From: a virus
Reading direction: 5' to 3' (one strand)
Virus record (IMG/VR): IMGVR_UViG_3300000956_000023
Coordinates: 1 to 29,205 of that record
DNA: 29,205 nt
Shown here: positions 3,099 through 26,724 of the stretch, in pieces
Layout of the letters: each line of letters opens with the position of its first letter
Position numbering within the stretch: the first letter of the stretch is position 1
Translations under genes and position numbers: made by a program
Notes under the pieces: model-generated
The model's input: the letters and a program-made list of their open reading frames with translations, nothing else
Told to the model about the DNA's origin: nothing
Databases searched by the model: none

Positions 3099-3664
3099 AG
3101 GTGCAGGACATTCAGGGTGGAGCGGTGCAATACCGAGCTGCCGAGGTGCAGGAAGTCAGCATTGAGAAGCGCGAGATGTTCGTGCGCGCTGCACCTTACG
3201 GGGTCACCACCGACATCGGTGGGGGCATCGACGAGACCTTTGAGCCAGGGACCTTTGCCAGGGCTGTGAAGGCGCCTCAGCGTGTTTCGGCATTCTGGGA
3301 GCACGGTGGTCCGCTGATCGGGCGCGGCATTCAGGTGATTGATCAGGCAGACGGGGTCTGGATTCGCGCGAAGATAGGCCGCACCACCGCCGCGACGGAC
3401 GTCATTTCGCTGATCGAGGACGAGCTGCTCCGAGACGTGTCGGTGGAATTCCGACCGATCCCCGAGGCGATGAAGGTGCATCAGCGCGGGCAGCGTTTGG
3501 ATATTCGGCATATCCGTGCGCACCTGCTGGGTTTCGCCGTGGTGACGAATGGCGCCTATGGCGACAAGGCCTACGTGGATTCGGTGCGAGATGAACGCGT
3601 CGACCGCGACCGGGAGGCAGCTCGCTTGTGGCTGCAAAGCGTGCGTGGCAGGTGGACCGCGTGA
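3095..3664 (+). CDS. Prohead maturation protease, HK97 (S78-like)
   Basis: A 189-residue serine protease that cleaves the scaffold or delta domain during capsid maturation. The N-terminal block (EKREMFVRAAPYGV, then DETFEPGTFARAV) and the WEHGGPLIGRG segment are typical of caudoviral HK97 prohead proteases; the His in WEHG is a likely catalytic residue. DVSVEFRPI supplies the expected serine. The gene lies between portal and capsid, as usual. Start ATG 3095 overlaps the portal stop. The capsid protein has an N-terminal helical region that could act as the scaffold delta domain removed by this enzyme; that is inference from the family. Confidence 0.93.
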   Translation: MKVQDIQGGAVQYRAAEVQEVSIEKREMFVRAAPYGVTTDIGGGIDETFEPGTFARAVKAPQRVSAFWEHGGPLIGRGIQVIDQADGVWIRAKIGRTTAATDVISLIEDELLRDVSVEFRPIPEAMKVHQRGQRLDIRHIRAHLLGFAVVTNGAYGDKAYVDSVRDERVDRDREAARLWLQSVRGRWTA

Positions 3665-13427: not shown

Positions 13428-13502
13428 CAGGCGTTAGCTCAGTGGTAGAAAGCACGCGTCATGGTGCCGCGCGGTCGGGGCGTTCGATTCCCCCACGCCT
13501 GC
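13428..13502 (+). tRNA. Degenerate tRNA, probably tRNA-Pro(UGG)
   Basis: A cloverleaf can be drawn. The acceptor stem 13428-13434 (CAGGCGT) pairs perfectly with 13495-13501, and pairing extends two more bases outward. The D arm is GCTC-AGTGGTAGA-AAGC and the T arm has the loop TTCGATT. The anticodon stem is CGCG/CGCG around a loop in which positions 34-36 read TGG (Pro-UGG). C1-G72 is also typical of bacterial tRNA-Pro. Defects: C13-A22, T31-C39 and one T-stem mismatch, and A instead of the nearly universal U at position 33. No CCA is encoded. It may be a decaying tRNA. Confidence 0.55.
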
Positions 13503-13529
13503 CGGGACCCAAGCAGAATAGGAGGAACC

Positions 13530-13616
13530 ATGGCATGCAGTGAATGCGAGAAGGCACGTCGCGAGCGTGAGGCAGCTGCACAGCAGGCGCGCGAGGCAGC
13601 GGCCAAGGAATCCTGA
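13530..13616 (+). CDS. 28-aa Cys-pair peptide
   Basis: ATG 13530 has an excellent ribosome site (AGGAGGA, ending 4 nt upstream). The product starts MACSECEKARRERE and continues as an Ala/Glu/Arg amphipathic helix to the stop, which overlaps the endolysin ATG (TGATG). The CxxC pair could bind metal with a partner or form a disulfide. The strong site also makes this a likely translational lead-in for the endolysin, which has no site of its own. Function unknown. Confidence 0.62.
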   Translation: MACSECEKARREREAAAQQAREAAAKES

Positions 13617-20984: not shown

Positions 20985-23201
20985 GTGATAGATGATGCCC
21001 AGAATGTAATGCCTCTCCATCCGATGACATTAGCGCTGAGCTGGCTGCAGCGTGGCGTCCCGGCCTTTCCTGTTGAGATATTCATGCAAGATGGCAGGCT
21101 GCAGAAGCGTCCAGCTACGGCACATAGCCACCATGATGCTTCGCTGGACCCGGACGTGGTGCGGGACATGTTCGTGCAGGCCCAGATGCGCCACGGCGGT
21201 GTGCTGGCCGTGGGCTTGCTTCCGGGCGCGGGCAATCTGATCGTGCTGGACCCGGATGTCAAGACGGACGACCGGGACGGGGTCAGGTTCGCGGACTCGC
21301 TAGGCATCCCGTTTGGCTGGCTGGTGTTCACACCTAGCGGAGGCCAGCACAGGTATTTCTGCAAGCCCGATCCCCTGGCGCGCTATTCGAACAAGGTACC
21401 TCCTGCCTGGAACGGCTTCATCGACATCCGCGTGGATCACGGTTGGGTGGTCGCGCCCGGCACGGTGACGCCGTGGGGCAGCTGGCGCGCCGAGGCTCCA
21501 TGGCCCGACCAGGGACCGCCCAGAGCGCCACAGGCCGTCCTGGAGGCCCTGACCTATGGTGCGGGCCAGTCTGGTGCCACAGGGACGCCTGGCGGGCGTC
21601 TGACGCCGGACAGAGAGGCCCTGCTGCCCGAGCACACGCTGGCAGTGCTCCACTGGCTGGAGACCAATCACGGCGCCCACAACCCATTGCTCATGATGCG
21701 CGCGGGCGACGTGAACTACGTGGCGGTGACGCGTCCTGGCAAGCGTGTCGGGATCTCAGCAACGATCGGGTTCGCGGACACGGGCGCGCTGCACCTGTAT
21801 TCCAGCTCGTGGGTCATTGAGGGCGTGGAACAGGCCGTCACGTGCTACCCGTTGGGCCGCGACACGGACACGCTCGGTGCCAGGGCAGCGGTCGCCGCTG
21901 CCACGCCCGTGCCCGCTGGTCCATTCTTTGTCCGTGGCTCGTTCCAGGTGCAGACCATGGCAGCGGCTGTCATGAGCGACATCCCCTTGGCACTGGACCG
22001 CACCGACGGCGGGCTATGGTATTATCGGGACGGGGTCTGGCGCCCGATGCTGGCAGGCGATGACGTGGTGTTGGCTGGAGTCACTGGCAGGCTCGGTGAG
22101 CGATTCCGCACGAGCCATTACAATAACGTCCGGGAATACATTCGCGGTCAGGCACCCACCATCCGCCCTAGCGACCCGAATCCACGCTACGTGAATACTC
22201 CGGGCGGGATGCTGGAGTGGCGCACGGGGGAGCTCTGCGGGCATGCACCAGAGTTCCAGTCAGTGAATCAGATCACAGCTCGTTGGGAGCCTGGTGCGCG
22301 CTGTCCTGCCTTCGACGCCTGGATCGCTGAGGTGCTGCCGGGCGACCTGGTGGGCCAGTGGCTGGACGAGCTGCTCGGTTATTTGGTGCTGTCCGGGAAT
22401 CCGTTCCAGAAAGCCATCCTCCTGCTCGGACGCGGGCGTAACGGTAAGGGCACATTCATCCGCGTGGTGCAGGCGCTGCTAGGCGACGAGAACTATTCAA
22501 ACGTGACGCTGCAGGGCCTGGTCGGCAACCGCTTCGGCGCGGCGGACATGTACGGGAAGTTGGCGAATATCTGTGGCGATCTGGATTCGTCGCGGCTCGA
22601 GTCCACCGCCATGTTCAAGATGGTAACGGGCGGCGACACCATTTCGGCAGAGCGGAAGTTCGGCCATGCATTCTCGTTCACGCCTTACGCTGTGCCGTTC
22701 TTCAGCGCGAATGCAGTGTTCGGTACGCCCGACACTTCGGATGGCTACATGAGCCGTTGGGTGATCGTGCCGTTCCCGAACAGCTTCGAGGGTGGCGCCG
22801 ACCGCGCGCTGACTGAGCGGCTCACGACCGAGGCCGAGCTAGCCGGCATTTTGGCCAGGGCAATTCGCGGACTGCGCACCCTGATGCTGCGCAATGACTT
22901 CCAGATGGCAGATTCAGTACGCGCAGCTCGCGAGCAATTCGAGCGCGAGTCCGACCCTATCCGCGCGTTCATCGCGGACTGCACAGGCCCGGGCGGGTAC
23001 GCCACCCGGCACGACTTGTGGACGACATATACGGTGTGGGCAGCGGAAAGTGGCCACGCCGCATTGGCTCGTACAAAGTTCTACGCTCGTCTCGAAGAAA
23101 CGGGCCTGGCGCCCACGGCGCTGCAGGGCGTTCGGGCATTCAAAGGCCGCCACATGACCCAGGAAGCGCATTATGGGTCGTTGGTGCCAAAGGTGCAGTA
23201 G
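20985..23201 (+). CDS. PrimPol-SF3 helicase (D5/P4-like replication protein)
   Basis: A 738-residue two-part replication initiator. The N-terminal primase-polymerase domain (about 1-190) shows LIVLDPDVK with Asp89 and Asp91, and SGGQHRYF with His122, the metal and phosphate-binding motifs of the archaeo-eukaryotic PrimPol family. A D5-type linker follows. The C-terminal SF3 helicase has Walker A GRGRNGKGT at 482-490, then NICGDLDSS, and PFFSANAVFGTPDTSDGYMSRW with sensor and arginine-finger regions. No separate DNA polymerase is seen in the window. Start: GTG 20985; ATG 21009 is possible, and neither has a strong ribosome site. The stop lies inside the large inverted repeat. Confidence 0.9.
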   Translation: MIDDAQNVMPLHPMTLALSWLQRGVPAFPVEIFMQDGRLQKRPATAHSHHDASLDPDVVRDMFVQAQMRHGGVLAVGLLPGAGNLIVLDPDVKTDDRDGVRFADSLGIPFGWLVFTPSGGQHRYFCKPDPLARYSNKVPPAWNGFIDIRVDHGWVVAPGTVTPWGSWRAEAPWPDQGPPRAPQAVLEALTYGAGQSGATGTPGGRLTPDREALLPEHTLAVLHWLETNHGAHNPLLMMRAGDVNYVAVTRPGKRVGISATIGFADTGALHLYSSSWVIEGVEQAVTCYPLGRDTDTLGARAAVAAATPVPAGPFFVRGSFQVQTMAAAVMSDIPLALDRTDGGLWYYRDGVWRPMLAGDDVVLAGVTGRLGERFRTSHYNNVREYIRGQAPTIRPSDPNPRYVNTPGGMLEWRTGELCGHAPEFQSVNQITARWEPGARCPAFDAWIAEVLPGDLVGQWLDELLGYLVLSGNPFQKAILLLGRGRNGKGTFIRVVQALLGDENYSNVTLQGLVGNRFGAADMYGKLANICGDLDSSRLESTAMFKMVTGGDTISAERKFGHAFSFTPYAVPFFSANAVFGTPDTSDGYMSRWVIVPFPNSFEGGADRALTERLTTEAELAGILARAIRGLRTLMLRNDFQMADSVRAAREQFERESDPIRAFIADCTGPGGYATRHDLWTTYTVWAAESGHAALARTKFYARLEETGLAPTALQGVRAFKGRHMTQEAHYGSLVPKVQ

Positions 23202-23328
23202 GTGCAGCTAGGTGCAGCACCTGGCAATCTAAGCTACCTCCAGGTGGAACGTGAACAACGCCCTAACCCTGACGGGTTTGTAAAAAGAATGGCTCCAGGT
23301 GCTGCACCTAGCTGCACCTACTGCACCT
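23191..23328. repeat. Perfect 34-bp inverted repeat of iterons, origin candidate
   Basis: Left arm 23191-23224 and right arm 23295-23328 are perfect reverse complements over 34 bp, separated by 70 nt. Each arm contains three iterons of AGGTGCAG (spaced about 10 bp) ending in ACCTGG, so iterons face each other. The inner 70 nt include CCTCCAGGTGG, forming a further CACCTGG/CCAGGTG pair, and an A/T-rich stretch TTTGTAAAAAGAAT. The left arm holds the last codons and stop of the primase-helicase gene. Location and iterons fit the origin bound by this initiator. The other reading is a very stable terminator. Confidence 0.9.
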
Positions 23329-23458: not shown

Positions 23459-23488
23459 ATGGCGCCGGGACGCCGCGTGTGTTATCAT
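23459..23488 (+). promoter_or_regulatory. Leaderless promoter P23483, class B
   Basis: ATGGCG (23459-23464), 18 bp and TATCAT (23483-23488) preceded by TGT. The spacer region carries GGCGCCGGGACGCC (23461-23474), the exact reverse complement of the element at 24657 and 25876. Two GACTCGCC boxes lie upstream (23429-23436 and 23445-23452). The -10 ends 6 nt before ATG 23495, so transcription should start at or next to the A of ATG. The 167 nt before it (from 23329) hold no gene; a small GGCGT/ACGCC palindrome is at 23329-23342. Confidence 0.78.
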
Positions 23489-23745: not shown

Positions 23746-23775
23746 GCGGCGCGCGGACGCCGCATGTGTTATACT
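23746..23775 (+). promoter_or_regulatory. Promoter P23770, class A
   Basis: GCGGCG (23746-23751), 18 bp, TGT and TATACT (23770-23775), preceded by CCCCGA. A perfect 8-bp inverted repeat, ATGCGGCG (23744-23751) and CGCCGCAT (23758-23765), covers the -35 and spacer. The leader is about 30 nt and ends in the start-associated sequence GAGAGGACACCAC followed by ATC (23797-23812). Confidence 0.78.
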
Positions 23776-25873: not shown

Positions 25874-25928
25874 TTGGCGTCCCGGCGCCCGGTCTGTCAT
25901 ACTGATCTTACGGCTCCCGCCGGGAGCC
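25874..25928 (+). promoter_or_regulatory. Promoter P25898, class A, with leader hairpin
   Basis: TTGGCG (25874-25879), 18 bp, TGT and CATACT (25898-25903), preceded by CCCCGA. The element GGCGTCCCGGCGCC is at 25876-25889. Near the predicted transcript start a 7-bp hairpin forms between GGCTCCC (25912-25918) and GGGAGCC (25922-25928) with a 3-nt loop. The start-associated sequence GAGAGGACCACCACC (25935-25949) then abuts ATG 25950. A 5'-terminal hairpin would protect the mRNA. Confidence 0.82.
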
Positions 25929-25949: not shown

Positions 25950-26678
25950 ATGTCACCGAAGATGAGCGTCATCCAGGCCCTGCTGGCGAAGGCTGAGGGC
26001 ACCGACAACCCGGCAGAGGCCGAGGCCTTCACCCAGAAGGCCGAAGAGCTGATGCTGAAGCACGGCATCGATGTGGCCATGTTGGCCGCGAAGCCGGGGC
26101 AGAAGGCCGAGTCCATCGTCCGGCGCGAGTACGAATTCACTGGCGCCTACCGGCAGGTCCGCATGGTCGGGACCTTCGCCGTTGCCAGGGCCTTCGCCGA
26201 TGGGGCGATCGTCGGGTTCAAGCGCGAGCGTGGCAACACGGTCACCCTTACCCTGGTCGGGTTCGAGAGTGCGTTGAACGACCTCGAGCTCCTGCTGTCC
26301 AGTTTGCACGTGCAGAGCATCACGGCCTTGACCGCGTGGTGGGCAACTAAGCCGACCTGGCGCTTTTACGAGCGCACCGAGAAGCACGAGATGTTCATGG
26401 CTCGTCGGTCGTTCGTGCAGGCGTTCTACTCGGGTGCGGCGAGCCGCATTCGGGAGGGCTTCAGCAAGGCCGTTGCGACGGCGGGCACTGGCACCGACCT
26501 GGTGTTGGTGGATCGGAAGCGCCAGGTCCGCGATTGGGTGAACGAGAACGTCGGGCCGTTGGGGAAGGCCCGTGGGCGCGGGATGAACGGCGGGGTCGGC
26601 AGTGGGGCAGGGTTCGCTGCAGGGCGAAGCGCCATGACCCAGAAGGTCGGCGCCGGGCGTGGGGCGATCGGAGCCTAG
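25950..26678 (+). CDS. DUF2786-domain protein
   Basis: A 242-residue protein. Residues 6-45 (VIQALLAKAEGTDNPAEAEAF, then AEELMLKHGID) match the DUF2786 domain, a short helical module of actinobacterial and phage proteins with unknown role. The middle (REYEFTGAYRQVRMVGTFAVARAFADG, then VGFESALNDLELLLSSL) resembles the extended phage members of this family. The C-terminal 70 residues are Gly/Arg-rich (GKARGRGMNGGVGSGAG), suggesting nucleic-acid binding. Start set by the start-associated sequence. The stop is inside a CCTAGG palindrome, followed by a terminator. Confidence 0.85.
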   Translation: MSPKMSVIQALLAKAEGTDNPAEAEAFTQKAEELMLKHGIDVAMLAAKPGQKAESIVRREYEFTGAYRQVRMVGTFAVARAFADGAIVGFKRERGNTVTLTLVGFESALNDLELLLSSLHVQSITALTAWWATKPTWRFYERTEKHEMFMARRSFVQAFYSGAASRIREGFSKAVATAGTGTDLVLVDRKRQVRDWVNENVGPLGKARGRGMNGGVGSGAGFAAGRSAMTQKVGAGRGAIGA

Positions 26679-26724
26679 GCGCCTAGGGCCACGCGGGGCA
26701 GGGGGAACGGTACCCCTGCCCCGC
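26674..26724 (+). terminator. 12-bp terminator hairpin with CCTAGG palindrome
   Basis: CCTAGGCGCCTAGG (26674-26687) is a perfect 14-bp palindrome containing the stop codon of the preceding gene. Then 26693-26704 (GCGGGGCAGGGG) pairs over 12 bp with 26713-26724, loop GAACGGTA. No T-run follows apart from TTT at 26732. It separates the promoter-rich region from the next operon. Confidence 0.78.

Follow-up and report, generated by a model that had tools for sequence, protein, structure and literature searches.

A perfect inverted iteron repeat beside a PrimPol-D5 helicase gene as a candidate replication origin of an uncultured tailed phage

The PrimPol-helicase gene and the inverted repeat at its end

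The DNA analyzed here is the IMG/VR virus record IMGVR_UViG_3300000956_000023, positions 1 to 29,205, and this whole 29,205-base stretch is called the window below. It contains a gene for a primase-polymerase joined to a D5-type superfamily 3 helicase (PrimPol), whose last codons run into a perfect 34-bp inverted repeat made of short iterons, AGGTGCAG. A sequence-only reading had proposed that this repeat is a self-contained replication origin that the PrimPol-helicase encoded next to it recognizes, as in satellite phage P4. The features concerned are:

20985-23201, plus strand: PrimPol / D5-type SF3 helicase gene, 738 amino acids, proposed initiator (domain matches and fold)
22905-23198, plus strand: C-terminal winged helix (Pox_D5-like), proposed iteron reader (PF03288, 5.7e-5, 23.9 bits against a cut-off of 21.4, domain scanned alone)
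23115-23141, plus strand: codons for residues 711-719 (TALQGVRAF), aligned with the covarying wing of the cluster-K-type primases described below; putative role here
23191-23224, plus strand: left arm of the 34-bp inverted repeat, 100% complementary to the right arm with 0 mismatches
23191-23198, plus strand: iteron L1, AGGTGCAG, coding for V-Q, the last two PrimPol residues before the stop codon
23200-23207, plus strand: iteron L2, AGGTGCAG, whose AG is the end of the PrimPol stop codon TAG
23210-23217, plus strand: iteron L3, AGGTGCAG; its end is overlapped by a near-copy in reverse, AGGTGCTG, on the minus strand at 23215-23222
23225-23294, no strand: 70-bp spacer, proposed melting region, 51% AT against a window mean of 36%
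23265-23278, no strand: small hairpin AACCC-TGAC-GGGTT within the spacer, read from the sequence and paired in the predicted fold
23280-23289, plus strand: A-rich stretch GTAAAAAGAA in the spacer
23295-23328, minus strand: right arm of the inverted repeat, 34 nt
23302-23309, minus strand: iteron R3, AGGTGCAG
23312-23319, minus strand: iteron R2, AGGTGCAG
23321-23328, minus strand: iteron R1, AGGTGCAG

Identical 34-bp arms with three iterons each, around a 70-nt spacer with an A-rich segment, had been described in the sequence-only reading, and this description was exact. The iterons follow each other in steps of 9 and 10 bp in the left arm, mirrored as 10 and 9 bp in the right arm. The inverted-repeat score of 34 compares with best scores of 11-14 in 20 mononucleotide shuffles and with 15 for the second best repeat of the window. 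In dinucleotide shuffles, an inverted array with two iterons on each side (2+2) arose in 2 of 200 cases and a 3+3 array in 0 of 200. A strict scan with any 7-mer found no other inverted iteron array in the record, and the arm motif has no further occurrence there. Dinucleotide shuffles predict 1.17 copies of the iteron in the window; 16 were counted, six of them inside the arms. Three copies at 3099-3196, exactly 45 bp apart (two on the plus strand, one on the minus strand), lie inside the head protease gene and may be either a crr-like second site or chance. The spacer ranks at the 99.2 percentile of the window in AT content, and its duplex is weaker than 99.3% of the 70-mers of the window.

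The protein proved to be P4/D5-like, as had been suggested. It carries an N-terminal Prim-Pol domain (PF09250, 4.7e-14) of the archaeo-eukaryotic primase (AEP) type, the domains D5_N and DUF5906, and a match to the P4-family primase_Cterm (TIGR01613, 1.4e-56). The SaPI5 primase-helicase is a sequence match (7ola, phmmer 1.9e-14) and also the top structural match of the predicted model (7om0, Z 23.6, root-mean-square deviation (rmsd) 4.0 over 373 residues, residues 306-713). Because the full-length AlphaFold model was poor (predicted local distance difference test (pLDDT) 52, with the N-terminal 309 residues unreliable), the fold match was used over about residues 306-725 only.

A stem at the end of a gene could be a transcription terminator or an RNA-stability hairpin of the PrimPol mRNA, and both the position and the RNA folding z-score of -10.0 fit this. 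Nevertheless, no T-tract follows either arm, a terminator scan gave zero sites in the repeat, the loop is 70 nt long, and the left arm begins within coding sequence. The 9/10-bp iterons would be left unexplained, and Rfam gave no match to the repeat. We regard this explanation as very unlikely, and the bidirectional terminator once listed as an alternative is lost with the missing T-tract. Perfect terminal inverted repeats flanking a short interior would also suit a small transposon (miniature inverted-repeat transposable element) with 34-bp ends. The flanks, however, show no target-site duplication and the record holds no further copies. Among newly fetched contigs with three spaced AGGTGCAG, none has an inverted array and two have a single reverse copy nearby. 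The repeat is almost certainly not such an element. The terminator and transposon readings therefore both fail.

Similar layouts in other primase loci and known systems

We scanned 25 loci of related primases, taken from named phage records, for strict inverted arrays. Seven loci contained one, and 7/7 arrays lay no more than 1 kb from the primase, a zone comprising 48,667 bp (27% of bases) against 132,537 bp farther away. The seven arrays carry seven iterons, all unlike that of the window:

TGCATGC: Streptomyces phage Mischief19, 5' of the primase, one lineage with phiSAJS1
TCCCGCG: Streptomyces phage phiSAJS1, 5' of the primase, one lineage with Mischief19
GTTACGT: phage record Javan633
TCTGTGC: phage Enkosi
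TTGTTCC: satellite Javan600
GTGATGG: Lactobacillus phage P185, where the first iteron also overlaps the end of the primase gene
TTGCCTC: Bordetella phage BPP-1

The spacers between iterons were AT-rich for their own locus in 10/10 loci measured (percentiles 0.86-1.00). In LincolnB, GTAACAGA repeats begin at the stop codon region of the primase. As a background, 1.04 Mb from 119 viral contigs picked for another reason gave five arrays of three kinds with the same scan, one kind being next to a DUF927+Toprim gene. The BPP-1 iterons (record about 26607-26710) form a 2+2 inverted set of CGAGGCAA in 9-bp steps with an AT-rich centre, and are intergenic, at a distance of about 470 bp past the primase.

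Of 11 Streptomyces-type relatives from IMG/VR, nine carry a large inverted repeat (score 28-40) on the 5' side of the primase. L140 and L142 had no large repeat, with about 1 kb of upstream sequence in L140 and zero in L142, and none was found in the distant L144 and L145. Arms in the Streptomyces phages reach up to 110 nt (100 matches), with 33/33 in another case, and one-sided breaks outnumber compensated pairs in them (13 vs 6 of 54; 10 vs 3 of 36). The perfection of the window arms had been taken to imply constant repair or selection; this does not necessarily follow, since the Streptomyces phages keep arm pairing only partly. In three Streptomyces phage loci (L134, L135 and L124), a GTGCGCGCG-type alternating G+C stretch is kept at the centre of the loop between the long inverted arms upstream of the primase.

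Of the systems described before, the origin of phage-inducible chromosomal islands (PICI), including the Staphylococcus aureus pathogenicity islands (SaPI), came closest. The window repeat lies immediately 3' of the initiator gene, with its first iterons overlapping the gene end; two iteron sets (3+3 inverted AGGTGCAG) flank an AT-rich centre; and the initiator is a D5-family helicase with SaPI5-like sequence and fold. The satellite Javan600 has the same plan, with TGTTCC. The window differs in that its arms are perfect over 34 bp and its first iteron is coding sequence. It also differs in its genome, which encodes terminase, portal, protease, capsid, major tail and tape-measure proteins; with these virion genes present, the element is not a PICI. 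The part of PMC6092414 dealing with this origin plan reports it as confined to satellites. Contrary to that account, the window together with the cultured phages Enkosi, P185 and BPP-1 and the phage record Javan633 indicates, at the level of sequence, that a PICI-type origin plan occurs in phages.

The analogy with P4 stood only in part: an iteron origin was supported, and its closest described plan is the PICI/SaPI one, with iterons flanking an AT-rich segment, not P4 ori plus crr. The window PrimPol resembles P4 alpha as a P4-family primase-helicase (TIGR01613) with a C-terminal winged helix (Pox_D5), and the C-terminal domain of its cluster-K-type relatives resembles the P4 origin-binding domain 1ka8. 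There is no clear second iteron locus in the window corresponding to crr. The window N-terminus is an AEP Prim-Pol domain (PF09250), whereas P4 has a bacterial-type (Toprim) primase according to the comparison given in PMC4234260. The same source describes, for pRN1 and BIP-1, a combination like that of the window, with AEP, SF3 and winged-helix domains and, close behind the gene, a large inverted repeat (PMC4234260). pRN1 is reported to lack iterons, whereas the stem in the window is made of them. BPP-1 is there called nearly identical to BIP-1, for which a stem-loop is proposed and no iterons are described in the corresponding passage (PMC4234260). SCCmec Cch2, also a D5-type helicase, uses its C-terminal domain to bind short repeats that lie downstream of the gene; these are three direct repeats, and deleting inverted repeats there left binding unaffected, as stated in the relevant part of PMC7581432. 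The window element thus joins two plans, the iterons of PICI and the stem-loop of pRN1, in a stem made of iterons.

An operator or copy-control site, like P4 crr, would give the repeat a different role: PrimPol or another protein would regulate the downstream early genes or replication, and initiation would take place elsewhere. Known initiators also autoregulate, co-directional genes follow the repeat, and promoter-like repeats begin about 130-150 bp downstream. We nevertheless consider this quite unlikely as the sole role. The array is the only one of its kind in the 29-kb record, its AT-rich spacer fits the PICI origin plan as outlined in PMC6092414, and a second, regulatory function would be compatible with an origin.

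Covariation of wing and iteron in cluster-K-type mycobacteriophages

Relatives of the Enkosi primase in mycobacteriophages of the cluster K type allowed the iteron to be compared with the protein. We collected 34 loci, and covariation tests were run on 33 of them (L284 was dropped, its protein being out of frame). In the region scanned after the gene, a repeat cluster was present in 34/34 loci, with letters varying by phage and positions much alike; 18/34 passed the strict symmetric scan. The iteron class was read mechanically as the commonest NGNAC[AG] within 327 bases after the gene, which gave AGCAC in 10 phages, GGCAC in 10, AGTAC in 7, AGAAC in 4 and TGGAC in 2. Sites of the form NGNAC[AG]G belonged to the phage's own class in 235/276 cases. 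On a tree built from the part of the protein that precedes the wing, the class switches 15 times, with the whole array changing in concert. The published account of cluster K describes, where it treats repeats, 13-bp start-associated repeats and not downstream arrays.

We then asked which residues carry information on the class. With 26 phages in four main classes, assigned by hand, the six most informative of 372 variable columns were positions 837-841 and 843. The top single column reached 1.07 bits, against shuffled maxima with a mean of 0.91 and a highest value of 1.23; because 1.07 bits falls within the shuffled range, single columns alone are not decisive. Taken together, these residues follow a simple rule. 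For base 1 of the iteron, N839 goes with A and H839 with G. For base 3, S840 goes with T; when position 840 is G, V837 goes with A, and A, S or P837 with C. This rule was built on 26 phages and scored on 29, those with N or H in the wing; the three added ones fit as well. It was right at both bases in 29/29, and 0/20,000 permutations equalled it (best 46/58).

By leave-one-out nearest-neighbour prediction, the wing gave the correct class for 29.4/33 phages, compared with 16.5 for the rest of the protein before the wing, 14.8 for the tail and 10 for the majority class. Likeness within and between classes, calculated for 28 phages, was 0.818 vs 0.496 for the wing, 0.732 vs 0.723 for the tail, and 0.857 vs 0.854 for the rest of the protein. 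Exchange of a DNA block could mimic such coupling, because the wing and the array are neighbours on the DNA; the tail, which is encoded between them, does not track the iteron. Repeatedly, across near-identical backgrounds, a few changes of wing residues accompany the swap of a whole array. For example, L258 and L263 share 99.2% of the residues ahead of the wing and 33% of those in it, and their arrays are AGAAC and GGCAC, respectively.

The C-terminal domain of L251 was modelled as a fragment starting at residue 696 (mean pLDDT 72.5, and about 88 in the wing blocks). In this predicted model, residues 836-844 form a beta-hairpin with 839 and 840 at the turn. The best-matching folds were the RFX domain (8zjr, Z 8.1; 1dp7, Z 8.0) together with the origin-binding domain of P4 (1ka8, Z 8.0, rmsd 2.7, 75 residues), all at a Z of about 8, which is the edge of the aligner's meaningful range. 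Overall, the cluster-K-type primases appear to read their own origin via a nine-residue wing of the C-terminal winged helix. No prior report of wing-iteron covariation was seen among the papers listed by the literature searches. The P185-type family looked alike by eye, with differing wings and differing iterons, while the mechanical consensus failed for L290, L291 and L295; 7/14 of this set passed the strict symmetric scan (L285 and L292 of 16 were omitted as incomplete).

These data also bear on the possibility that the stem-loop itself is the signal, with the initiator assembling on an extruded hairpin, as proposed for pRN1 and BIP-1, and the iterons a by-product of the palindrome. The perfect 34-bp stem has a DNA folding z-score of -10.4, the Streptomyces phage arms are long, and pRN1 depends on a stem-loop of 100 nt that directly follows the PrimPol gene, according to the section on its origin in PMC4234260. 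On the other hand, arm covariation in the Streptomyces phages, with its excess of one-sided breaks, does not clearly support selection for a hairpin, and many cluster-K-type arrays keep iterons without the symmetric 2+2 layout. Moreover, it is the letters of the iteron, and not pairing alone, that follow the wing of the protein. A loop of 70 nt would also slow extrusion from the duplex. We therefore think it unlikely that the hairpin is the signal.

The proposed origin and its setting

From the observed anatomy and rarity of the repeat, the domains of the protein, the weak spacer and the finding of this layout next to related primase genes in unrelated phages with other iterons, we conclude that the repeat is very probably a tailed-phage replication origin, whose AGGTGCAG iterons the upstream PrimPol-D5 protein would bind through its C-terminal winged helix. 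The self-contained origin of the sequence-only reading is thereby supported, by the recurring layout, the SaPI5-like initiator and the covariation in relatives. SaPI Rep binds iterons downstream of its own gene as two hexamers, as summarized in the part of PMC7581432 on this protein. We infer that the PrimPol-D5 protein contacts AGGTGCAG mainly with its wing, residues about 711-719. The two arrays of three iterons converge, with a spacing of about one turn of the helix from iteron to iteron, and would place two helicase hexamers so that they flank the weak 70-bp duplex. The duplex would then melt, and the AEP domain would prime synthesis at the melted spacer. Covariation of the iteron with wing residues was shown in the relatives and would extend to the window by alignment. 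The window PrimPol has Q at the place of cluster-K position 839, and the iterons of the two cluster-K-type phages with Q there are TGGAC. A frame TGCA in AGG-TGCA-G would suit T at base 1; a chance match is likely at such a size, and nothing is claimed from it.

Several results weigh against this conclusion. No strict array was found in 18/25 of the primase loci. The wing rule was scored largely on the phages that it was built from, four phages lie outside it at position 839 (two R, two Q), and wing prediction drops to 25.8/33 when neighbours are limited to backgrounds less than 90% identical. GC skew, which had been suggested as a check for the replication start, shows no switch at 23.2 kb, a weak result because the genes around this position run one way. 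Finally, no close relative of the window PrimPol was found in viral contigs (one locus, 29% identical) or in genome contigs, so that the window iterons cannot be footprinted. A search with AGGTGCAGTAGGTGCAG matched at least 119 viral stretches, read as mostly Gly-Ala-Val coding repeats, and tblastn of PrimPol against these loci gave a significant E-value for the window's own pieces only. The three-iteron AGGTGCAG pattern matched 92 stretches, and tblastn (E 0.01) of the newly fetched ones gave no PrimPol relative. The same iteron beside the same gene was thus not found elsewhere in these iteron-pattern searches of viral contigs.

The window offers a candidate pair of origin and initiator for an uncultured tailed phage, open to testing, and extends the PICI-type origin plan from satellites to tailed phages. 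The most valuable result is probably the coupling of wing and iteron, which comes from the relatives and not from the window. The dozens of mycobacteriophages amount to a natural experiment in which the repeats and the residues that apparently read them have changed in step. With it, specificity becomes directly testable in this initiator family, whose relatives include the SaPI, P4 and poxvirus D5 proteins, and it suggests that origins could be predicted from protein sequence. More generally, it seems likely that D5-type phage initiators carry the origin code in the tip of the wing and that phage origins fall into specificity groups that switch, comparable to the incompatibility groups of plasmids. 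The window origin would then be one more allele, and the PICI plan would be general among phages and not a satellite speciality. Such codes may be expected to switch where satellites and phages compete for one initiator.

Beyond its virion genes, the record has nucleotide-metabolism genes and a RusA resolvase. Capsid relatives (56-78%) were found solely on contigs shorter than 7 kb, and bases 1-25000 gave no DNA match in the phage collection. A tRNA-Thr (GGT) lies at 13428-13503, just ahead of an open reading frame at 13616. At 23461-23488, 23748-23775 and 25876-25903, ahead of small early genes, a G+C-rich stem is followed by TGTTATCAT, TGTTATACT or TGTCATACT, which looks like a repeated extended -10 promoter preceded by a hairpin.

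Some other viral contigs also contained arrays. Inverted GTAACAT arrays occur at L046:10195-10290 and L121:1249-1343. The former, about 200 bp upstream of a DUF927+Toprim_3 gene, is likely an origin found blind; DUF927+Toprim is the helicase type of SaPIbov1 Rep in the classification given in PMC7581432. Arrays of AGGTGTAGTA/AGGTGCAGTA repeats lie at L109:7241-7466 and L112:3790-4014, and the closeness of the L109 array to a terminase gene suggests a packaging or origin site. In L006, L068, L095 and L113, in the region of the GTAGGTGCA repeats, GGTGCA-type repeats are clustered in a gap that precedes a small gene. These clusters are candidate origins, and in L095 a PrimPol plus AAA_25 protein is encoded about 2.6 kb from them.

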